This document shows, in pieces, positions 50,519 through 63,358 of a stretch of 64,000 nt of DNA. The position numbers and the translations under genes are program-made. The notes beneath the pieces were generated by a model that saw nothing but the letters and a program-made list of their open reading frames with translations, did no database searches and was not told the origin of the DNA. Numbering within the stretch: the first letter of the stretch is position 1; each line of letters opens with the position of its first letter. The stretch covers positions 1-64,000 of the forward strand of contig JADZEX010000076.1 in the NCBI GenBank assembly GCA_020850355.1. Direction: 5' to 3'. Source of the stretch: Fimbriimonadaceae bacterium (lineage in GTDB: Bacteria; Armatimonadota; UBA10988).

Positions 50519-51559
50519 ATGACGTCACGCAAGCTGCGGGGGATCTTCTGCCCCCACATGGTGCCGCTGGACGACCGCGACCGGATCAACGAGCCGGAGC
50601 TGCGGCGGATGGTCGAGTGGCTGATCCAAAGGGGCGTCCACGGGCTCTACCCGAACGGCAGCACCGGCGAGTTCACGCGGTTCAGCTTCGAAGAGCGCAA
50701 GGAGATCGTGCGGATCGTCACCGAACAGGCCGCCGGCCGGGTGACCATCATGGCCGGCGCCGCCGAGGCCAACGTCAAGACCACGCTGGCCGCCTGCGAG
50801 TACTACCACCGCATCGGCTGCGACACCGCCGCGCTGATCCCACCGATGTACTTCCCGGTGCAGCAGCCCAACATCCGGGAGTACTTCCTGACGGTGGCGC
50901 GCGAGTCGCCCATCGACCTGACGGTCTACAAGATCCCGCAGTTCACCAGCGACATCCACCTCGACACGCTCAAACGGCTGGCCGAGCACCCGCGGATCAT
51001 TGGCATCAAGGACAGCAGCCGCGACTTCCCCGGCTACCTGACGATGATGCACGAGGTGCGGGCGATCCGACCCGACTTCAGCTTCCTGATCGGCTGCGAG
51101 GAGATCCTCTGCCCGTCGCTGCTGATGGGCGGCGACGGCGGCACCATCGCCACCTCGGGGGTGGTGCCCGAGCTGATCGTCGAGATCTACAACCGCACGG
51201 TGGCCGGCGATCTGGCCACCGCGCTGCCGCTGCAATACGCGCTGCTGCGGCTGATCCGGCAGTTGGTGTTCGGAGTCGAGTTCCCCGAGGGCGTGCGCGT
51301 GGCGCTGGGCGTGCGGGGCTTCCAGATGGGCGCTTCGCGGGTGCCGCTGAGCCCCGAGGTGCGGGTCGACGCCGAGCGCGTGAAGGCCGAGCTGACCAGC
51401 ATCTTGACCGGCCTGCGCTGCGAGTTGCAGGCTGGCGACGGTCCGCCGGCGGTCTGCGCCGGCCCGGCCGCCGGCTCCCCGGCGGGCAGCTTCGACGAGG
51501 CAACGGTCCGCGCGCTGGTCGAGAAGGTCGTCCGGCAGTTGACGGCTGACGGCCGGTGA
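50519..51559 (+). CDS. DapA/NAL-family aldolase with C-terminal encapsulation-peptide-like helix
   Basis: A 346-residue class I aldolase or lyase of the dihydrodipicolinate synthase/N-acetylneuraminate lyase superfamily. It keeps YPNGSTGEF (45-53), Tyr137 in VYKIP (the family usually has YNIP) and the Schiff-base Lys164 in IGIKDSS. Known members cleave or form bonds to pyruvate (DapA, NanA, 2-keto-3-deoxy-sugar-acid aldolases). The core ends near residue 300. A Gly/Pro/Ala-rich linker (303-324) follows, then an amphipathic helix (326-343: DEATVRALVEKVVRQLTA) with V330, L333, V334, V337, V338 and L341 on one face. This is the form of BMC encapsulation peptides. Its TGA overlaps the GTG of the BMC gene. 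Substrate not proven. Confidence 0.88.
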   Translation: MTSRKLRGIFCPHMVPLDDRDRINEPELRRMVEWLIQRGVHGLYPNGSTGEFTRFSFEERKEIVRIVTEQAAGRVTIMAGAAEANVKTTLAACEYYHRIGCDTAALIPPMYFPVQQPNIREYFLTVARESPIDLTVYKIPQFTSDIHLDTLKRLAEHPRIIGIKDSSRDFPGYLTMMHEVRAIRPDFSFLIGCEEILCPSLLMGGDGGTIATSGVVPELIVEIYNRTVAGDLATALPLQYALLRLIRQLVFGVEFPEGVRVALGVRGFQMGASRVPLSPEVRVDAERVKAELTSILTGLRCELQAGDGPPAVCAGPAAGSPAGSFDEATVRALVEKVVRQLTADGR

Positions 51560-52167
51560 GCGCGCTTGGGCTGCTGGAAGTACGGACCTTCACCGCCAGC
51601 ATCGTGGTGGCCGACCTGATCACCAAGGCGGCCGGCGTCGAGCTGCTCAACCTGGAGCTGAACGACCTGTACGGCACGCTGCTGCGGGTGACCGGCGAGA
51701 CCAGCGCGGTGCAGGTCGCGATCGCCGCCGGCGAGGCCGCCGCCACGCAGCTCGGGGCGGCCTTCACCGGCACTGTGGTGCCGCGGCCGGCGGCCGACGG
51801 CCGGCGTTTCAACCAGGCGCCGCCGGTGGTCAGTTGGCTGCTCGGCGCGCCCGACCCGTTGTACCCCCGACCGGAGGATGACATGGCCGATCAGGGCAAG
51901 GCCCTTGGATTCGTCGAGACCCAGGGCGTCACGGCCTGCTACGAGGCGCTCGACGCGATGCTCAAGGCCGCGGCGGTGGAGTACGTCGGCCGCGAGAAGA
52001 TCGGCGGCGGCTACGTCGCGGTGATCGTCCGCGGACCGGTCAGCGACGTCACCACGGCGGTCGAGGCTGGAGCCGCCGCGGCGCGGCAGGTCGGCGGCAA
52101 CTTCATCGCCAGCCACGTGATCGCCCGCCCGCACCCCGGCGTGCTGCGGATGATGCCGCGGGAGTAG
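51556..52167 (+). CDS. Tandem-domain bacterial microcompartment shell protein (BMC-T)
   Basis: A 203-residue shell protein with two BMC domains, so it should trimerise into a pseudohexameric shell tile. Domain 1 (about 3-78: ALGLLEVRTFTASIVVADL, then ELNDLYGTLLRVTGE) is diverged at the pore. Domain 2 (about 115-196: KALGFVETQGVTACYEALDAM, split here, and KIGGGYVAVIVRG) has the canonical GGG pore and BMC-H-like spacing. No Cys lies in the pore, so no Fe-S site of the PduT type is expected. The start is GTG 51556, in a GTGA overlap with the aldolase stop, which couples cargo and shell. No second BMC-H or BMC-P (EutN/CcmL) gene was seen in this window. Confidence 0.93.
   Translation: MSALGLLEVRTFTASIVVADLITKAAGVELLNLELNDLYGTLLRVTGETSAVQVAIAAGEAAATQLGAAFTGTVVPRPAADGRRFNQAPPVVSWLLGAPDPLYPRPEDDMADQGKALGFVETQGVTACYEALDAMLKAAAVEYVGREKIGGGYVAVIVRGPVSDVTTAVEAGAAAARQVGGNFIASHVIARPHPGVLRMMPRE
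51873..51885 (+). promoter_or_regulatory. Internal ribosome-binding site and start codon within the BMC-T gene
   Basis: GGAGG at 51873-51877 and an in-frame ATG at 51883 (spacing 5) lie between the two BMC domains. Translation from here would give a 94-residue protein (51883-52167) comprising domain 2 alone, a normal BMC-H size. The Salmonella pduB gene makes PduB and shorter PduB' from an internal start. Use of this site is inferred, not shown. Confidence 0.6.
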
Positions 52168-55468: not shown

Positions 55469-57421
55469 ATGCAATCCTTCAACGACGAGCCACGCAAGAT
55501 GAGTCCGCCGCAGATCGCGGCGGTGACCGCGGTGGGGGTCTGCGCGCTGGCTTTCGTGCTGAAGCTCTGGATGGCCCGCGCAATCGGCTCGGTCGCCATC
55601 AGCGCCGCGGCCTGGCACGCCGTGGCCGGCCTGCTCTACGCGCTCCTGATGCTCGGGATCCTCCACTCCCCGACCGAACAGGCCGCCGAGGAGGACCTCA
55701 GCGACGCCGAGCGCGAGTACCTGCAGTACCAGGGCGGCCTGCAGATCAACGTCAAGCGCCACGAGGCCTTGCTGGCGTTGGCCGGCAGCCTCGGCCTGAT
55801 GGCCGTCTCCTACCTGATCTTCCGCCGCGTGCTCGGCGCGCAGCCCAGCCAGGTCGGGGCGGTCACGATGCCGCTGGTCGGCCTCGGGCTGATCTTCTTT
55901 GGGATGCAGTTCCTCGGCCGCTTCACCGAGCGGGTCGGCCTGCAGCACGAAACGCCGGGCCTGGTGGCGACCTCGTTCCATGCGCGGACCGACGCCTTCG
56001 CGACGATCCTGGCGATGCTGGCCCTGGTCGGCGTGGCGATGGGGTTCAACAGCGAGCGCTACCTGGCGGCGCTGATTGGCCTGCTGCTGGTGGCCGACGC
56101 CGCGCAGTTGTTCGTCGACGCGACCCGCCGAATCGTCGGGCTCGAAGAAGACAGCCCGACGGCGCAGGTGCCCTTCTGGGTGCGCCTGCGGCAAGCGCTG
56201 CGGGCCTACGCCGAGCAGATGCCGCCGATCATCCGCTGGCTGCTGCGCTACGAAGACGCCATGAGCGCGGCCGAGTTGCGGCAGGCGCGGCGGGTGGCGG
56301 GCCTGGTCTGCCTGGGCCTCTACCTGCTGACCGGCTTCAACCAGGTCCAGCTCGGCCAGCTCGGCGGCGTGAAGGTGCTCGGCCGCTGGCATCACATCGC
56401 GCAAGCGGGGCTGGTCTACGCCCTGTGGCCCTTCTCGTCGGTGCGGATCGTGCCGGTCGACCGGGTCCAGCGCGTCACCGTCGGATTCTCGATGGCCCGC
56501 GCCTGGTCCCCGCATCAGGAAACCCGTGACGTCGGCATGATGGCCTGGGAACAGGCCGACGGTGACAACAAGCTGTTCACGATCCGGCCGACCGAGTCAA
56601 AGTTCATGCTCGGCGACACGACCCAGGTCGAGACCCACGTCGCGTTGACCTACACGGTCTCGCGCAATGCCGTGAAGCAGTACCTGTTTGGCTTCGAGCG
56701 ACCCGAGAACCTGGTGCAGCGCGCGACGCAGCAGGCCCTCCAAGAGCTGATGCTGGTACGGCGCCTGGATGCCGTGCTGGTCGAGGACCGCAGCGGGCTG
56801 GAGCGCCAGGTCGAACAGCAGGTGCAGCGGACGCTCGACGAGCTGGGCAGCGGCATCGTGGTCGAGAAGTGCATGATCCGCAGCGTGCATCCGCCGGTCG
56901 AGGTCCTGGCGAGCTTCGTCGACGTGGCCTCGGCGATTGAGGACAAGGCCCGCGAGGTGAACGAGGCCGAGGGCTATGCCCTGCGCACGGTCGAGCTGGC
57001 CAAGGGCGAGGCCGAGCGGTCGCTGAACAGCGCCAAGGCCGACGCGATGCGGCGGGTCACCGAAGCGCGCGGGCAGACCGAGGGGTACCGCCGCGTCTTT
57101 GCCGCCGCGCTCGCCAACCCGGCGGCGGTCCGCGACCGGCTGACCATCGAGTCCCAGGAGCGGCTGCTGAGCGGTCGCAAGAAGGTGATCCTGCCGCGGG
57201 CCGCGGGCCGCGGGCGGCCGACCATTTGGTTCAGCAACAGCAACCCGGCGCCGGTCGCGGCCGGCGACGCCGATGGTCCGCCCCCGCCCGTTCCAAGCCC
57301 ACCGCCGACCGCGCCGCCCGCCGGGGCCGGCGCCCCCGCTGAGGGCGGTCCGGCCGCGGGCGGTGAAGCGGCGCCGGCGGGCGAGGGCGGTGCGGCCGCC
57401 GCGGCTGGCGGAGCAGGCTGA
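55469..57421 (+). CDS. CDF-like membrane domain fused to an SPFH (HflK-like) domain
   Basis: A 650-residue fusion. Residues 17-225 carry about six helices resembling a cation diffusion facilitator. TM2 reads GSVAISAAAWHAVAG, retaining His50 but with Gly54 where CDF site A has Asp. TM5 reads SFHARTDAF, retaining H171 and D175. Residues about 285-570 form an SPFH/band-7 domain of the HflK type (VPVDRVQRVTVGFSMARAW, split; VAL-TYTVSRNAVKQYLFG; ALQELMLVRRLDAVL; LAKGEAERSLNSAKADAMRR). The last 70 residues are Pro/Gly/Ala-rich, as in many HflK proteins. HflK and HflC form ring cages around FtsH. GGAG nine bases upstream supports ATG 55469. A weak promoter candidate lies at about 55381-55409. Confidence 0.82.
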   Translation: MQSFNDEPRKMSPPQIAAVTAVGVCALAFVLKLWMARAIGSVAISAAAWHAVAGLLYALLMLGILHSPTEQAAEEDLSDAEREYLQYQGGLQINVKRHEALLALAGSLGLMAVSYLIFRRVLGAQPSQVGAVTMPLVGLGLIFFGMQFLGRFTERVGLQHETPGLVATSFHARTDAFATILAMLALVGVAMGFNSERYLAALIGLLLVADAAQLFVDATRRIVGLEEDSPTAQVPFWVRLRQALRAYAEQMPPIIRWLLRYEDAMSAAELRQARRVAGLVCLGLYLLTGFNQVQLGQLGGVKVLGRWHHIAQAGLVYALWPFSSVRIVPVDRVQRVTVGFSMARAWSPHQETRDVGMMAWEQADGDNKLFTIRPTESKFMLGDTTQVETHVALTYTVSRNAVKQYLFGFERPENLVQRATQQALQELMLVRRLDAVLVEDRSGLERQVEQQVQRTLDELGSGIVVEKCMIRSVHPPVEVLASFVDVASAIEDKAREVNEAEGYALRTVELAKGEAERSLNSAKADAMRRVTEARGQTEGYRRVFAAALANPAAVRDRLTIESQERLLSGRKKVILPRAAGRGRPTIWFSNSNPAPVAAGDADGPPPPVPSPPPTAPPAGAGAPAEGGPAAGGEAAPAGEGGAAAAAGGAG

Positions 57422-57466: not shown

Positions 57467-58366
57467 ATGGACAACCAAATCGTACGGACCCGGGTCCGCT
57501 GGCTGGCAGCCGGCGCGCTCTTCCTGTGGCTCTCCAGCGCCTTCTTCACGGTGCAGGAAGAGGAATACGCGGTGGTGCTCTTCTTCGGGCGCCCGGTGCG
57601 GATGGTCAGCAACTCCGGCCTGAAGCTGAAGTTCCCGTTGCCGGTCAACACCGTCGCGCGGGTCGACCGCCGGCTGCTGGTCTACGATACCATCGCCACC
57701 GAGTACCTCACGCGCGACAAGAAGAACATCGTCGCGCAGTGCTACGCGGTCTGGAAGGTGACCGACCCGGCCGAACTGCTGCGCCGCTGCGGCGACCGGC
57801 TGAGTGCCGAGCAGAAGCTCGACGAGCATCTCAGTTCGGCGCTGGGCGCAGCCTTCGGGCAGCAGAACTTCGACAATCTGGTCAATGAGGACCCCGAGAA
57901 GGTGCAGATCGACGCCACCATGAAGGGCGTCGAGAAGGCCGTCAACGAGGTCGTCGCGGACCGCAAGTACGGCATTCAGGTGGCCAGCATCCACCTCACC
58001 CGGCTGAGCTACCCCGACGCCACACTCGATGCGGTCTTCAAGCGGATGCGCGCCGAGCGCAAGGCCATCGCCGAGAACTATCGCGCCGAAGGGACCCGTC
58101 TGGCGACCGGCATTCGCAGCGAGGCCGACCGCCGCAAGACCGAGATCCTGGCGACGGCCCAGGCGCAAGCCGACCGCATCCGCGGTCAGGCCGAGCAAGA
58201 CGCGGCGCGGATCTTCTCGAACAGCTACCGCGGCAATCCGGCGTTCTGGCGCTACTGGCGCAAGCTGCAGGCGATGGAGAAGGTGATCGACAAAGACACC
58301 ACCATCTACATGACCCCGGATGTCGAGCTGTTCAGCCCGCTCGTCTCACCGCCGCCCGCGCGTTAG
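57467..58366 (+). CDS. HflC-like SPFH protein
   Basis: A 299-residue membrane-anchored SPFH protein. One N-terminal helix (WLAAGALFLWLSSAFF) is followed by the HflC start FTVQEEEYAVVLFFGRPV and GLKLKFPL, the pattern of HflC. The domain ends with a coiled region AERKAIAENYRAEGTRL and QAQADRIRGQAEQDAARIF, and a C-terminal tail. In E. coli HflC pairs with HflK to modulate FtsH. The order fusion-hflC-hflK-like-ATPase, with spacing of 45, 11 and 9 nt, indicates one operon. Confidence 0.9.
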   Translation: MDNQIVRTRVRWLAAGALFLWLSSAFFTVQEEEYAVVLFFGRPVRMVSNSGLKLKFPLPVNTVARVDRRLLVYDTIATEYLTRDKKNIVAQCYAVWKVTDPAELLRRCGDRLSAEQKLDEHLSSALGAAFGQQNFDNLVNEDPEKVQIDATMKGVEKAVNEVVADRKYGIQVASIHLTRLSYPDATLDAVFKRMRAERKAIAENYRAEGTRLATGIRSEADRRKTEILATAQAQADRIRGQAEQDAARIFSNSYRGNPAFWRYWRKLQAMEKVIDKDTTIYMTPDVELFSPLVSPPPAR

Positions 58367-58377
58367 GAGCCACCGCC

Positions 58378-59505
58378 ATGAAGCGCCTGTTCCGCGGCTG
58401 GTCCTGGGAGCACTGGTACAACCTCGCGCGGGAGGACATCGAAGCCGCCTACGACAGCGTCCGCCGCGCCGTCCGGGTGGTCGTTTACGCCGGCGTGGCG
58501 GTCTGGGTCCTGTCGGGCTTCCACGCCATTCGGCCCGACGAAGTCGGCATCGAGACCGTCTGCGGCGCCGTCTTGCGCAGCGTCGAGCAGCCCGGGTTGC
58601 GGTACCGCCTGCCGTGGCCGGTCGGCGCCGTGCAGCGCGTGCCGATGCAGCGTCAGCAGCGGGTCACCGTCGGCCTCGCCGACGGCGGCCTGACCGCCGA
58701 CCAGCGCCTCGGCAAGGCCGCCACCAAGGCCCTCGATACGACCGTCGCCGACCGCTTCGACCAGGATGTCGACACCAAGGGCAGCAAGCTCGATGAGGTG
58801 ATCAAGGAAGGTCAGAAGAAGCAGCTCTCCGAAGGCGCGCGGATCCAGCTCGGTGACGGCTTGTCGCTGCTGACGGCCGACCACAACGTGATCCAGGTGC
58901 AGGCCGTGGTGCAGTACACCATCCGCGACCCGCGGCAGTGGCTGTATGCCACCGAAGGCGCCGATCTGGTGATCCGTCGCGCCGCGACCTCGGCGTTGTT
59001 GCAGGAAGCCACCGCCACGGGGGTCGACCAACTGCTGACCACCGCACGGGTGCAGACCCAGGAGCGGGTCAAGCGCGAGGTCAACGCCGCGCTGCGGCCG
59101 TTTGCCCTGGGCGTCGACGTGGCTGGCGTCGAACTCCAACGGGTCGCCCCGCCGACCGCGGTCGAGCCCTCCTTCCGGAGCGTCAACTCGGCGCGCGAAG
59201 AGAAAAACACCGCGGTCAACGAAGCGGACCAGTATCGCGGGACCATCGTGCCCGAGGCCTCCGGCACCGCCAGTCGGATGGTCTCCGAGGCCGAGGCCTT
59301 CCGCAGCACCCGGCTGGCCGAGGCCTCCGGCGAAGCGTCGCGCTTCAACGGCGTGCTCCGCGAGTACCGCGCCAGCGGCCCGCTAACCGGCGAACGGCTG
59401 CGCCTGGAGACCGTCGAGCGCGCCCTGGCGAAAGCCAGCCGGGTGCAGGTCGGCTCCGGCCTGGACGTCGTGATGACCACCCCGCCGCCGGGCCAGGGCC
59501 CCTAA
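58378..59505 (+). CDS. HflK-like SPFH protein
   Basis: A 375-residue SPFH protein with an N-terminal membrane helix (VVVYAGVAVWVLSGF), the start HAIRPDEVGIETVCGAVL and PGLRYRLPWPVGAVQ. The central VIQVQAVVQYTIRDPRQWLY is HflK-like. An insert of about 65 residues (about 104-165, Asp/Lys-rich) separates the two beta parts and is unusual. The coiled region SVNSAREEKNTAVNEADQY and the C-terminal helices are normal. With the fusion and HflC-like proteins it makes three SPFH subunits in one operon. Confidence 0.85.
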   Translation: MKRLFRGWSWEHWYNLAREDIEAAYDSVRRAVRVVVYAGVAVWVLSGFHAIRPDEVGIETVCGAVLRSVEQPGLRYRLPWPVGAVQRVPMQRQQRVTVGLADGGLTADQRLGKAATKALDTTVADRFDQDVDTKGSKLDEVIKEGQKKQLSEGARIQLGDGLSLLTADHNVIQVQAVVQYTIRDPRQWLYATEGADLVIRRAATSALLQEATATGVDQLLTTARVQTQERVKREVNAALRPFALGVDVAGVELQRVAPPTAVEPSFRSVNSAREEKNTAVNEADQYRGTIVPEASGTASRMVSEAEAFRSTRLAEASGEASRFNGVLREYRASGPLTGERLRLETVERALAKASRVQVGSGLDVVMTTPPPGQGP

Positions 59506-59514
59506 GGAGCCGCC

Positions 59515-61644
59515 ATGAGCGACGCCAAACCGCCCGCCGGGGAGCATCACCACGGCCCGCATTGCCAGCACGAGCACGAGCCTGGGCCGGGCTGCCAGCA
59601 CGAGCACCAGCACGGCCCGGATTGCCAGCACGGGCACGACCATCATCACCACCACGGGCATGAGCATGGGCCGGGCTGCGGGCATGAGCATCATCACAGC
59701 GAGATGGCCTTCCACTCGCACGGCTCGGCCGAGATTGAGCTCGACTTCAGCATCATGCTGGGGATCAGCCTGCTCTGTGGGACCTTCATCCTGTTCGGGC
59801 AGGTGGCCCGCTGGCAGGGCGCTGAAGGGCTGCTGATCAACACCTGCTTCGTGCTCGGGATCCTGGTCGGTGGCGCGATCCCGATGTTGGAGGCGTTGCC
59901 GAACCTGCTGCGGATCCGGCCGGACATCGAGTCCCTGATGGTCTTCGCCGCCGTCGGCGCCTGGGCGCTCGGCGAGCCGCGCGACGGCGCGATGTTGATG
60001 TTCCTGTTCTCCGGCGCCCGGGCCCTCGAGGCGTTCGCCGTCGGCAAGACTCGCCAGAGCCTGCGGGCCCTCAAAGAGCATTGGAAGGAAAGCGCCACGC
60101 GGCTGCGTGATGGCGAGGAGGAGACCGTCCCGATCTCCGAGCTGCAGCTCGACGATGTCGTGCTGGTGCGGCCCGGCGAGCGGATCCCGCTCGACGCCCT
60201 GGTCGTCGGGGGCTCTTCGGCGGTCAACGAAGCGGCGATCACCGGCGAGCCGCTGCCGGTCGACAAAGAGAGCGGCGCCAGCGTCTTCGGGGGCACCCTC
60301 AACCTGCAGGGCGTGCTGCGGATCCAGATCCAGTCGACCGTCGGCGAATCGACCCTGGCGCGCACGATTCGTCTGCTCGAAGAAGCGCAGGAGCAGGAAG
60401 CCCTGACGCAGCGCGTCGTCGAGTGGGCCACCGAGCACTACTCCACGCTGGTCCTGCTGGCCACCATCTTCGTCGTGGTGATCCCCTACCTCTACTTCCG
60501 GCAGCCGATCAGCGAGACGGTGACCCGCGCGCTGACCCTGCTGGTGGTCGCCTCGCCCTGCGCCCTGGCGGTGTCGACTCCGGCCACGCTGTTCTTCGCC
60601 ATCACCGCGGCCAGCCGGCGGGGGATCCTGCTGAAGGGCACGGTGCACCTCGAAGCCGCCGCCGCCGTGCGGGTCGTGGCGCTCGACAAGACCGGCACGC
60701 TGACCCGCGGTGAGCCGCACGTCACCGGCGTGCATGTGCTGCCGACCCAGGACCAAAACGCCCTGCTCGCCATCGCGGCGGCGGTCGAGCGGCTCAGCGA
60801 GCACCCGCTGGCCAAGCCGGTGGTCGACGAAGCGCGGCAACGCGGGCTGACCATCGTCGAGGCGACCGACTTCCAATCGGTCACCGGCCGCGGCGTGCAG
60901 GCGCTGGTCGGCGCGCAGTTGGTGCGCATCGGCAGCCCGATCTGGATGCGCGAGTGCGCGGTCGACTACCCGGCGGCGCTGCGCGAAGTGGCCGTGCCGC
61001 TCGAAGAGCGCGGCGAGCGCAGCCTGCTGGTGGCGGTCGACAGCCAGGTGGCCGGTCTGATCGCCGTGGCCGACACGATCCGTCCCGAGGCCGCGGCGCT
61101 GGTCCGTGACCTCAAGCGCACGGGCATCCGGCGGGTCGTGATGCTGACTGGCGACAGCCGCGCCGCGGCCGAGGCGATCGGGGCGCAGTGCGGTTTGGAC
61201 GAGGTCCGCGCCGAACTGCTGCCGCAGCACAAGCTGGAGGCCATCGAGGAACTGCGTGAGACCTACGGCCGCGTGGTGATGGTCGGTGACGGCGTCAACG
61301 ACGCCCCGGCCCTGGCCCGCGCCGACGTCGGCGTGGCGATGGGCGGGATCGGCTCCGACCTGGCCCTCGAAAGCGCCGACGTGGTGCTGACCACCGACGA
61401 CCTGTGGCGCCTGCCCGCCTTCCTCGACCTCGCCAAGAAGTCGACCCGCATGTTGCTGTTCAACCTGGCGGTCTCCCTGGCGGTGATCTCAGTGCTGGTG
61501 GCGCTGGTGATCTCCAGCGTCAGCACCGGCCGCAACCTGACCCTGGTGCAGGCCGCCATCGGTCACGAGGGCAGCACCATCTTCGTGATCCTGAACGCGA
61601 TGCGGCTGCTGCGTTGGAAGAGCCGCTACGACTATCGGCTGTGA
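59515..61644 (+). CDS. P1B-type heavy-metal ATPase, P1B-4-like, with Cys/His-rich N-terminus
   Basis: A 709-residue metal exporter. The first 70 residues contain 24 His and 4 Cys, in ten-residue GP-x-CQHEH-type repeats that would bind metal. The actuator TGE is at 243-245, the membrane SPC (347-349, CPx-type) reads ASPCALAVSTP, the phosphorylation site is D391 in DKTGTLT, the P1B His-Pro is in LSEHPLAK, and the hinge is GDGVNDAPAL. Near the C-terminus GHEGSTIFVILN resembles the HEGG/S-x-x-N motif of the P1B-4 group (Co/Fe/Zn), and the two extra N-terminal helices seem reduced. It is the last gene of the SPFH operon, before a perfect hairpin terminator. Metal identity is inferred. Confidence 0.92.
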   Translation: MSDAKPPAGEHHHGPHCQHEHEPGPGCQHEHQHGPDCQHGHDHHHHHGHEHGPGCGHEHHHSEMAFHSHGSAEIELDFSIMLGISLLCGTFILFGQVARWQGAEGLLINTCFVLGILVGGAIPMLEALPNLLRIRPDIESLMVFAAVGAWALGEPRDGAMLMFLFSGARALEAFAVGKTRQSLRALKEHWKESATRLRDGEEETVPISELQLDDVVLVRPGERIPLDALVVGGSSAVNEAAITGEPLPVDKESGASVFGGTLNLQGVLRIQIQSTVGESTLARTIRLLEEAQEQEALTQRVVEWATEHYSTLVLLATIFVVVIPYLYFRQPISETVTRALTLLVVASPCALAVSTPATLFFAITAASRRGILLKGTVHLEAAAAVRVVALDKTGTLTRGEPHVTGVHVLPTQDQNALLAIAAAVERLSEHPLAKPVVDEARQRGLTIVEATDFQSVTGRGVQALVGAQLVRIGSPIWMRECAVDYPAALREVAVPLEERGERSLLVAVDSQVAGLIAVADTIRPEAAALVRDLKRTGIRRVVMLTGDSRAAAEAIGAQCGLDEVRAELLPQHKLEAIEELRETYGRVVMVGDGVNDAPALARADVGVAMGGIGSDLALESADVVLTTDDLWRLPAFLDLAKKSTRMLLFNLAVSLAVISVLVALVISSVSTGRNLTLVQAAIGHEGSTIFVILNAMRLLRWKSRYDYRL
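59554..59697 (+). repeat. Metal-binding ten-residue repeats in the ATPase N-terminus
   Basis: Four copies of a ten-residue unit (GPHCQHEHEP, GPGCQHEHQH, GPDCQHGHDH, GPGCGHEHHH) are encoded at 59554-59643 (three in tandem, 30 bp each) and 59668-59697. A His-rich run separates the third from the fourth. The copies differ slightly at DNA level and lie within the open reading frame. Confidence 0.85.
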
Positions 61645-61666: not shown

Positions 61667-61698
61667 ACGGCCGCGGCGCCAGCGCCGCGGCCGTTTGC
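61667..61698 (+). terminator. Terminator of the SPFH-ATPase operon
   Basis: ACGGCCGCGGCGC (61667-61679) and GCGCCGCGGCCGT (61682-61694) form a perfect 13-bp inverted repeat with a 2-nt gap (a 4- to 6-nt loop in practice). A short TTTGCTGTTG tail follows, T-rich but not a full tract. It lies 23 nt after the ATPase stop. Confidence 0.75.
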
Positions 61699-61718
61699 TG
61701 TTGGGCGGATGACGAACA

Positions 61719-61767
61719 GATCGCTTTCGCACCCATCAGCCCCAATCGGATCATTTTCGCACCGATC
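61719..61767. repeat. Direct repeats upstream of the fic gene
   Basis: Copy 1 (61719-61737) reads GATCGCTTTCGCACCCATC and copy 2 (61749-61767) reads GATCATTTTCGCACCGATC. Sixteen of 19 positions are identical, and the starts are 30 bp apart (about three helical turns). A perfect inverted repeat, CGGAA-CGA-TTCCG (61767-61779), follows. The cluster sits 60-110 bp before the fic start, so operator function is plausible. Confidence 0.6.
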
Positions 61768-61828
61768 GGAACGATTCCGTAGCGGCGGGCGTTGTTGGGA
61801 GCGACTGCGGTCCCAATGGGGTGGAGTG

Positions 61829-63358
61829 ATGGTCACGACCGGCCGAGAGGCCCAACCGCTGGGCCAGCTTGCCCTGCACACCAGCCTTAGCCTTCGGTTG
61901 CCGCCGCCGCACGTGCGTAGTTACGCGCGACCCGGGGCACGCCGCACCGTGATTGAGCCAACGTTCCGGGAGGAGCACTACCCGGCGGACTACGGCAATG
62001 ACGGCAGCCTGGTCGCGAATCTTCGTTTCGCCTTCCGCAACGAGCCCTTGGACCTGGCCGTGGTGTGGGCGGCGCTCCAGGCCCTGGGCTCGACCGAGGT
62101 AGAGCGCTGGGTGCAGCGTGAGCCGACCGGGGAATATGCGCGGCGCGCCTGGTTCCTGTACGAGTTCTTGGGCAACTCGGAAGTGGACCTGCCTCCGGCA
62201 CGCGACGGCCGCTATGCCGCGGTGTTGGACGATCGGCGCCACTACACGGCCCCGGCCGTGCGGTCCCGGCGCCACCGTCTCTGGAACAACCTCTGGGGCG
62301 ACCACCGACTCTGCCCCGTGCTGCGTCGCACCGAGCATCTGGAGCAGCGGACCCGCGAGCACTGGAGCGCGCGGGCGTTGGCGCTGACCACCGCCCACGA
62401 TCCCTCGACCCTGGCGCGAGCCGTCCACTACTTGTACACCCACGAGACCCGCTCGTCGTACGCCATCGAGGGTGAAGCGCCGAGCGAGCACCGCATCGAG
62501 CGTTTCGTGCAGGCGCTGCAGCGGCTCCAGAGTGACCACTGGGAACCGCGCGACCCGGCCGCGTTGATCGCGATGCAGAACCAGATTGTCGAGAGCCGGT
62601 ACGCGGCGACAGGCTGGCGCACGTTCCAGAGCTTCGTCGGCGGCCTGGGCAACGACCAACGGATGCGGCTGTACTACCTCTGTCCGCGGCCGGAGGATGT
62701 CCCAGAGCTGATGCAGGGCTGGGCCGACCTCTCGGCGAGCTTGCTGGCTGCTGACCTCGACCCGGTCCTGGCAGCGGCAATGCAGTCCTTCGCATTCGTT
62801 TTCATCCACCCCTTCGAGGACGGCAACGGGCGGCTGCACCGCTGTTTGATGCACCACATGCTGGCCCAGCGTGGGTTCACGCCGGAAGGGGTGATCTTCC
62901 CCATCAGCGCAGCGATCTTGCGGCAGCGGCGGCTGTATGATCAGGCCCTCGACACCTTCTCGGCGCGGGTGCGCGGCGCCGCGCGCTGGCAGTGGGCCGC
63001 CGACGGCACTGTCCAGGTGATCGACGACACGCTCGATCTCTACCGATTCTGGGACGCCACGCCGCAGGCTGAGTACCTCTACGATCGCGTCGTCGAGACG
63101 ATTGAGGTCGACCTCCAGCAGGAGCTCAACTTCCTGGTCCGCTTCGACGCCGCCTACGCCGCGGTGATCGCCGTGGTCGACATGCCGAACCGCCGCGCCG
63201 AGCTGATGACGCAGTTGCTGCTGCAGAACGAGGGGCACCTCTCCAAAGGCAAGCGCGGCCACTTCGCCGAGCTCACCGACGCCGAGGTCGCCGCGATGGA
63301 GGCCGGCGTGCAGGCGGTCCTGGCGCACACCACCGACCTCACCGTGCCGCGGCCTTAG
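61829..63358 (+). CDS. Fic-family protein with N-terminal inhibitory motif
   Basis: A 509-residue Fic protein, expected to transfer AMP or another nucleotide from its donor to a hydroxyl of a target protein. The motif HPFEDGNGRLHR (H327 to R338) is fully conserved. An upstream (S/T)xxxE(G/N) motif, SYAIEG (S210, E214, G215), is the inhibitory helix signature of class II Fic proteins, so autoinhibition is likely. C-terminal 150 residues contain a helical, winged-helix-like region. ATG 61829 has weak SD spacing, and the frame is open to ATG 61709. The upstream ATG would put the direct repeats inside the gene, so I prefer 61829. It is probably a stand-alone gene. Confidence 0.88.
   Translation: MVTTGREAQPLGQLALHTSLSLRLPPPHVRSYARPGARRTVIEPTFREEHYPADYGNDGSLVANLRFAFRNEPLDLAVVWAALQALGSTEVERWVQREPTGEYARRAWFLYEFLGNSEVDLPPARDGRYAAVLDDRRHYTAPAVRSRRHRLWNNLWGDHRLCPVLRRTEHLEQRTREHWSARALALTTAHDPSTLARAVHYLYTHETRSSYAIEGEAPSEHRIERFVQALQRLQSDHWEPRDPAALIAMQNQIVESRYAATGWRTFQSFVGGLGNDQRMRLYYLCPRPEDVPELMQGWADLSASLLAADLDPVLAAAMQSFAFVFIHPFEDGNGRLHRCLMHHMLAQRGFTPEGVIFPISAAILRQRRLYDQALDTFSARVRGAARWQWAADGTVQVIDDTLDLYRFWDATPQAEYLYDRVVETIEVDLQQELNFLVRFDAAYAAVIAVVDMPNRRAELMTQLLLQNEGHLSKGKRGHFAELTDAEVAAMEAGVQAVLAHTTDLTVPRP

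Follow-up and report, generated by a model that had tools for sequence, protein, structure and literature searches.

A CDF-type metal transporter domain fused to an HflK-like SPFH domain at the head of a three-SPFH operon with a P1B ATPase

Within a stretch of 64,000 nucleotides from a Fimbriimonadaceae genome (contig JADZEX010000076.1, assembly GCA_020850355.1), hereafter the window, the first gene of a four-gene operon encodes a CDF-type metal transporter domain that continues, in the same polypeptide of 650 amino acids, into an HflK-like SPFH domain (gene 1; 55469..57421, forward strand, as are all the operon features below). The host is a groundwater bacterium, and the same CDF::SPFH fusion was found in nine other genomes or plasmids. 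On balance, gene 1 probably encodes the transporter-bearing subunit of a hetero-oligomeric HflK/C-like SPFH cage for zinc/copper homeostasis. This reading is supported by the recurrence of transporter families at X of a cassette of the form [X::SPFH]-HflC-HflK, together with a metal-gene context, and by the precedents of HflK/C, which enclose FtsH (PMC13220708), and of human stomatin, which encloses aquaporin-1 and the urea transporter-B (UT-B) (PMC12407830). The original prediction for this DNA had recognized the fusion and the pattern of metal ligands, both of which stand; its suggestion of sensing or weak transport is unproven, and it did not take in the operon, the loss of the CDF C-terminal domain, or the other metal transporters found at the same SPFH position.

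Integrity of the fusion gene

The open reading frame runs from an ATG at 55469 to a stop codon at 57421 and has no internal stops; the ATG is preceded at 9 nt by the sequence GGTGGAG, and a possible alternative start is a GTG in the same frame, 15 nt upstream of the ATG. A frameshift, an assembly chimera or a chance ORF can practically be dismissed as the source of the fusion, since a single frame is open, GC3 is uniform across the CDF/SPFH junction, and the fusion recurs in the nine other genomes or plasmids, a recurrence that refutes such an artefact by itself, while no point in its favour was found. The frameshift that had been named as a way in which the prediction might fall is thus contradicted by the data, and the search for the same fusion in other genomes, suggested at the same time, was successful.

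The CDF domain and its metal site

The Pfam Cation_efflux profile matches residues 21-222 (55529..56134; 35.1 bits against a cut-off of 26.6, E 1.5e-8), and an AF2 model, whose input alignment was shallow (six proteins), places the six CDF helices at residues 13-39, 42-66, 90-123, 133-159, 163-190 and 195-223, with pLDDT values mostly between 75 and 90. When this model was compared with the PDB by Foldseek, E. coli HflK (7vhq_E) came first and YiiP and ZnT appeared later among further SPFH structures, with a probability of 1.00; the match to 8f6i spans 221 columns (TMt 0.62, rmsd 3.1), in line with a YiiP-like fold with six TM helices. Structure prediction is thus in agreement with a CDF-like N-terminal part. 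At the sequence level the window's CDF domain on its own matched none of the PDB sequences, and YiiP was reached only by the six-sequence profile, in which the six fused CDF domains together matched E. coli YiiP/FieF with an E of 3e-14.

In that profile alignment H50, G54, H171 and D175 of the window protein fall on YiiP site-A positions, facing D45, D49, H153 and D157, the ligand residues of that site in YiiP. Three of the four ligands are therefore kept, namely H50 in TM2 (CAC, 55616..55618) and H171 (CAT, 55979..55981) and D175 (GAC, 55991..55993) in TM5, with H50 and H171 unchanged in all six CDF::SPFH proteins of the alignment, and the place of the missing TM2 Asp is taken by G54 (GGC, 55628..55630), a Gly that is also found in the relative L081. 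The ligand assignment that had been made from the window protein alone (H50, H171 and D175 kept, D54 replaced by Gly) is borne out by the comparison with YiiP; in the alignment E99 is kept as well. The C-terminal cytoplasmic dimerisation domain of CDF proteins was not found in gene 1, in which Pfam recognizes only Cation_efflux and Band_7, nor was it found in the fused proteins scanned, where TM7 and the SPFH domain stand in its place.

Among the ten CDF::SPFH proteins found, the window's included, ligand loss is the exception. An intact HxxxD/HxxxD site is present in eight: L075 and L076/L180 (Chloroflexi), L186 (from a search of the phylum of L075), L108 (Desulfobacteraceae), L189 and L190 (from the phylum of L108), L113 (Spirochaetes), and L153 (an Aquibium oceanicum plasmid). 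The only two exceptions are the window protein (H50/G54, H171/D175) and L081 (H40/G44, H145/H149). Since most of these proteins have the full site A, the architecture does not imply a loss of transport, and the earlier view, that the protein senses or transports weakly, is unproven, the more so as the operon has a P1B ATPase of its own. Nevertheless, as one of the four ligands is missing, the CDF domain of the window protein may transport weakly, or else serve the ATPase as a module for docking or metal binding.

The fusion is rare but recurrent: two confirmed cases were found in 350 genomes sampled from the phylum of L075, and three in 345 genomes sampled from the phylum of L108. Two genomes of the window's own family (G001 and G003) gave no match, and in a third (G002) the relevant contig, C474, starts inside the HflC gene, so that its fusion gene is out of view. 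A tblastn search of plasmids with the fusion returned mostly matches confined to the SPFH part, and two of the regions that were read hold ordinary two-gene hflKC. Genes for PPIC-type peptidyl-prolyl isomerases adjoin four CDF-type cassettes in genomes or plasmids (L075, L081, L113 and L157). Contig C31 of the window's own genome has a CDF and an SPFH domain in separate genes, the SPFH protein being prohibitin-like by eye, and these genes were judged to be unrelated; the same contig has one ORF with two tandem Cation_efflux domains (L044:3073-5220), perhaps a covalent CDF dimer.

TM7 and the SPFH half

Residues 296-503 (56354..56977) match Pfam Band_7 (48.8 bits against a cut-off of 23.6, E 1e-12), and Pfam, NCBIfam and Foldseek together mark this half as HflK-like. 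With both halves above their Pfam cut-offs and both folds matched, the proposed fusion of a CDF-like domain to an HflK-like SPFH domain holds. The NCBIfam models are more demanding: gene 1 scores 134.7 bits with the HflK model TIGR01933, below the equivalog cut-off of 159.4 that is passed by its Chloroflexi and Aquibium relatives, and 39.6 bits with the CDF superfamily model TIGR01297, below the cut-off of 82.35, which makes it a divergent member of both families.

In the AF2 model, short helices lie between the six CDF helices and TM7, and an SPFH fold, modelled with low confidence, follows TM7. This last helix (residues 267-287; 56267..56329) is predicted to carry the chain out, leaving the SPFH domain to face the periplasm, and a hydrophobic helix is clear at this place in most relatives. 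As an even number of CDF helices is followed by TM7, the SPFH domain would lie outside, facing the periplasm, as it does in HflK. The AF2 model also has long helices at residues 477-566 (56897..57166), in the manner of the coiled region of HflK, before the chain ends in a Pro/Ala/Gly-rich tail.

The operon and its surroundings

Genes 1-4 are co-directional, with gene 1 first and with gaps of only 45, 11 and 9 bp. Gene 2 (57467..58366) encodes an HflC-like SPFH protein (TIGR01932, 159.7 bits, cut-off 134.4), gene 3 (58378..59505) an HflK-like SPFH protein (TIGR01933, 187.6 bits, cut-off 159.4), and gene 4 (59515..61644) a heavy-metal P1B ATPase (TIGR01525, 564.9 bits, cut-off 346.3) with a His-rich N-terminus, as judged by its His count, and an SPC motif in TM6. 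This order, three SPFH genes and then a P1B ATPase gene, all read the same way, is the layout of the hmtA type. A terminator-like hairpin with a 12 bp stem lies 3' of gene 4 (61667..61694), in a region whose hairpins do not clearly outnumber those of shuffled sequences. A promoter scan of the operon found none, inspection by eye of the 69 bp that separate the operon from the GNAT gene upstream of it revealed no clear palindrome, and neither znu genes nor a recognisable Zur site were seen adjoining the locus. Elsewhere in the window, two BMC domains (bacterial microcompartment shell) occur in one protein (51556-52167), and 3' of the operon the product of an ORF with an HPFEDGNGR motif looks by eye like a Fic-type protein (61709-63358). 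Of the 12 Band_7 matches in the genome as a whole, six belong to its two transporter cassettes. In a second three-SPFH cassette of the same genome (G000:C60, L039:8106-13221), the first SPFH protein, of 1088 aa, is fused to a P1B ATPase.

One could envisage that the HflK/C-like proteins of the operon control FtsH as they do in E. coli, with the fused CDF domain sensing metal or acting as bait, so that proteolysis by FtsH (of the P1B ATPase, for instance) would follow the metal status. HflK/C are known partners of FtsH (PMC13220708), the window genome has three FtsH genes, and an incomplete site A would suit sensing. We consider this unlikely, however, as the window cassette contains no FtsH gene and the module that is fused in relatives is a complete P1B pump, or an SO_0444 efflux transporter that exceeds its family cut-off, and hence more than a sensor.

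A modular cassette

A genome collection was scanned with the HflC partner as query, and the 80 best loci revealed cassettes of the form [X::SPFH]-HflC-HflK, with a P1B ATPase very often next, in many phyla and besides the ordinary two-gene hflKC. The lineages include Verrucomicrobia, Planctomycetes, Gemmatimonadetes, Spirochaetes, Chloroflexi, Firmicutes and Proteobacteria, among others, and several of 291 Armatimonadota genomes have three-SPFH cassettes, some with the first SPFH domain behind a complete P1B ATPase (998-1142 aa). Four classes of X can be distinguished: P1B ATPases, CDF domains (6 of 50 scanned, best E 3e-25), ArsP_1/SO_0444 permeases (10 of 50, best E 3e-54), and unassigned, mostly six-helix domains that form one cluster of 35. 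In L074 the ArsP_1 part is assigned by NCBIfam to the SO_0444-family Cu/Zn efflux transporters (362.6 bits against a cut-off of 300); The first SPFH protein is long in L074, L077 and L107, and its permease part, at the N-terminus, contains a loop rich in His and Asp; L077 and L107 cluster with L074. The N-terminus of the window protein is a CDF domain that clusters with those of other CDF::SPFH proteins and not with the six-helix type. In a tree of the SPFH domains, the six-helix type forms one clade (100/100), all ten of the two-gene HflK proteins included form a separate clade (96/88), and the gene 3 proteins form one clade (99/92) beside the two-gene HflK. The CDF label requires four changes on this tree, at least three of them by the starred branches, and the transporter at this position has therefore been swapped or gained more than once.

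It is quite possible, although we put it forward tentatively, that bacteria have repeatedly built dedicated membrane cages for metal pumps. The HflK-like lead subunit of a widespread three-SPFH operon would then have been joined to zinc/copper transporters from three or more superfamilies with no relation to one another (CDF, P1B ATPase and SO_0444 permease), yielding a covalent transporter-in-cage with a closed periplasmic compartment that handles the metal.

As to whether the six-helix domains are plain CDFs, they have no Pfam match, a weak HHalign match, and a Foldseek list that is filled by SPFH structures. Cultured hosts of six-helix cassettes include Luteolibacter pohnpeiensis KCTC 22041 and Ruminiclostridium hungatei DSM 14427. 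The P1B ATPases of the six-helix cassettes have odd TM6 motifs at a number of loci, either CPC followed by SSST, or SPS replacing CPC (L062-L064, L071, L086, L087 and L110; L094, L099, L101, L102, L105 and L106). The six-helix domains bear on the notion that the fused CDF of the window is a relic with no metal function of its own, en route to the ligand-free six-helix domain of most P1B-associated cassettes and serving only to anchor the SPFH ring to the ATPase. Such a course would accord with D54G, with the separate P1B ATPase of the operon, with the modelled six-helix protein L109, whose helix lengths are nearly those of the window's CDF domain, with the lack of any invariant polar residue in the N-terminal part of the six-helix family, and with an HHalign match of this family to CDF TM4-6 that is in register but weak (E 2e-4, probability 46% in one direction and 5% in the other). 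Yet no CDF structure is among the 50 best Foldseek matches listed for L109, the window protein keeps three of its four ligands and E99, and the Aquibium protein has intact ligands alongside a P1B ATPase two genes downstream, all of which makes a relic improbable.

Metal context and the proposed function

The neighbourhoods of relatives tie the cassette to metals. In the same-family genome G002 (contig C474), HflC, HflK and P1B genes are followed closely and co-directionally by znuA, an ABC ATPase and an ABC-3 permease (znuA-znuC-znuB), and on a Paraburkholderia sprentiae plasmid a six-helix cassette is accompanied by a Fur-family regulator, zigA, a zinc ABC transporter and a TonB receptor; zinc-uptake genes lie beside the relatives L042 and P. 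sprentiae, whereas none were seen at the window locus. The CDF::SPFH gene of the conjugative Aquibium plasmid (L153:4368-6176, NZ_CP018172.1) belongs to a cassette near genes for a two-component system, a P1B ATPase, PCu(A)C, SCO and CopC, that is, in a copper island. In P. aeruginosa, PA2434-PA2439 comprise the P-type ATPase HmtA and three HflC/HflK-family proteins, and RNA and protein measurements show higher levels of PA2435 (HmtA) and PA2437-2439 when zinc is depleted (PMC4542158, PMC11761036). The regulation of hmtA by zinc is disputed, as these zinc-depletion data are at odds with a review according to which hmtA is neither zinc-repressed nor bound by Zur (PMC10393844).

The metal and the direction of transport proposed here come from cassette neighbours that point both ways, toward zinc uptake and toward copper/zinc efflux families. 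It is doubtful that the system is one of plain metal efflux, with the CDF domain still exporting Zn/Co/Fe, the P1B ATPase an ordinary exporter and the SPFH proteins only organising or stabilising them. CDF, P1B and SO_0444 are all efflux families, most CDF::SPFH proteins keep all four ligands, and the Aquibium relative sits in its copper island on a conjugative plasmid; on the other hand, the window protein is without one ligand, and the cassettes near its lineage and in Paraburkholderia accompany zinc-uptake genes.

In the cage reading that we favour, the CDF C-terminal dimerisation domain would have been lost and its role in oligomerisation taken over by the SPFH domain. Together with the products of genes 2 and 3, this SPFH domain would form a periplasmic ring of the HflK/C type. 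The transporter domain of gene 1 would be held in the membrane patch under this cage, probably with the co-encoded His-rich P1B ATPase in the same patch, and the complex would serve the homeostasis of zinc and perhaps of copper too; for this lineage, zinc limitation is the most likely setting. The fusion itself, the fold of both halves, the operon, the modular recurrence and the metal-gene neighbours of relatives are observed, and we infer the assembly of the cage, the membrane side of the SPFH domain, the association with the ATPase, the metal and the direction of transport.

A covalent fusion of zinc/copper transporters names directly a cargo of HflK/C-type SPFH cages beyond FtsH, and the idea of SPFH rings that corral transporters becomes testable in bacteria. 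Such fusions also suggest what SPFH genes may do next to zinc-responsive ATPases of the hmtA type. Moreover, proteins routinely labelled as FtsH modulators can be part metal transporter, as exemplified by the Aquibium fusion, whose sole annotation is 'FtsH protease activity modulator HflK' (WP_072608301.1). No published description of transporter::SPFH fusions was found in the non-subscription literature searched; a 2009 survey of prokaryotic SPFH proteins leaves transporters and ATPases unmentioned, and a 2026 survey of P. aeruginosa SPFH genes notes the three-gene operon and leaves HmtA unmentioned (PMC13086221). The CDF and HflK/C kinds are known, and the modular transporter::SPFH principle appears to be undescribed.

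Comparison with known systems

With the CDF transporters (YiiP/FieF, ZnT; PF01545) gene 1 shares the six-helix membrane domain, the site-A frame in TM2 and TM5, and the match to the YiiP fold; it differs in having TM7 and an SPFH domain for the C-terminal cytoplasmic domain, in the loss of one ligand, and in its score below the TIGR01297 cut-off. The HflK/HflC complex (TIGR01933, TIGR01932) is matched by genes 2 and 3, which pass the cut-offs, and by the SPFH half of gene 1, which matches the HflK structure, but the window has three SPFH subunits instead of two, one of them transporter-bearing, and its operon includes a metal ATPase and no FtsH gene. The zinc-depletion-responsive cluster PA2435-PA2439 of P. 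aeruginosa (HmtA and PaFlo5-7; PMC4542158, PMC11761036, PMC13086221) likewise combines three SPFH genes with a P1B ATPase, a likeness of layout only. Plasmid cassettes with the PA2435-PA2439 layout, in Paraburkholderia and Klebsiella, group with the six-helix type and not with CDF, and their ATPases have CPC where gene 4 has SPC and a His-rich N-terminus. The P1B::SPFH and SO_0444/ArsP_1::SPFH fusions agree with gene 1 in operon position and in their HflC and HflK partners, but their N-terminal transporter is of an unrelated superfamily. Finally, human stomatin with aquaporin-1 and UT-B (PMC12407830) presents transporters corralled by an SPFH oligomer, as is proposed for the window, although in that eukaryotic system the cargo is non-covalent and has no metal role.
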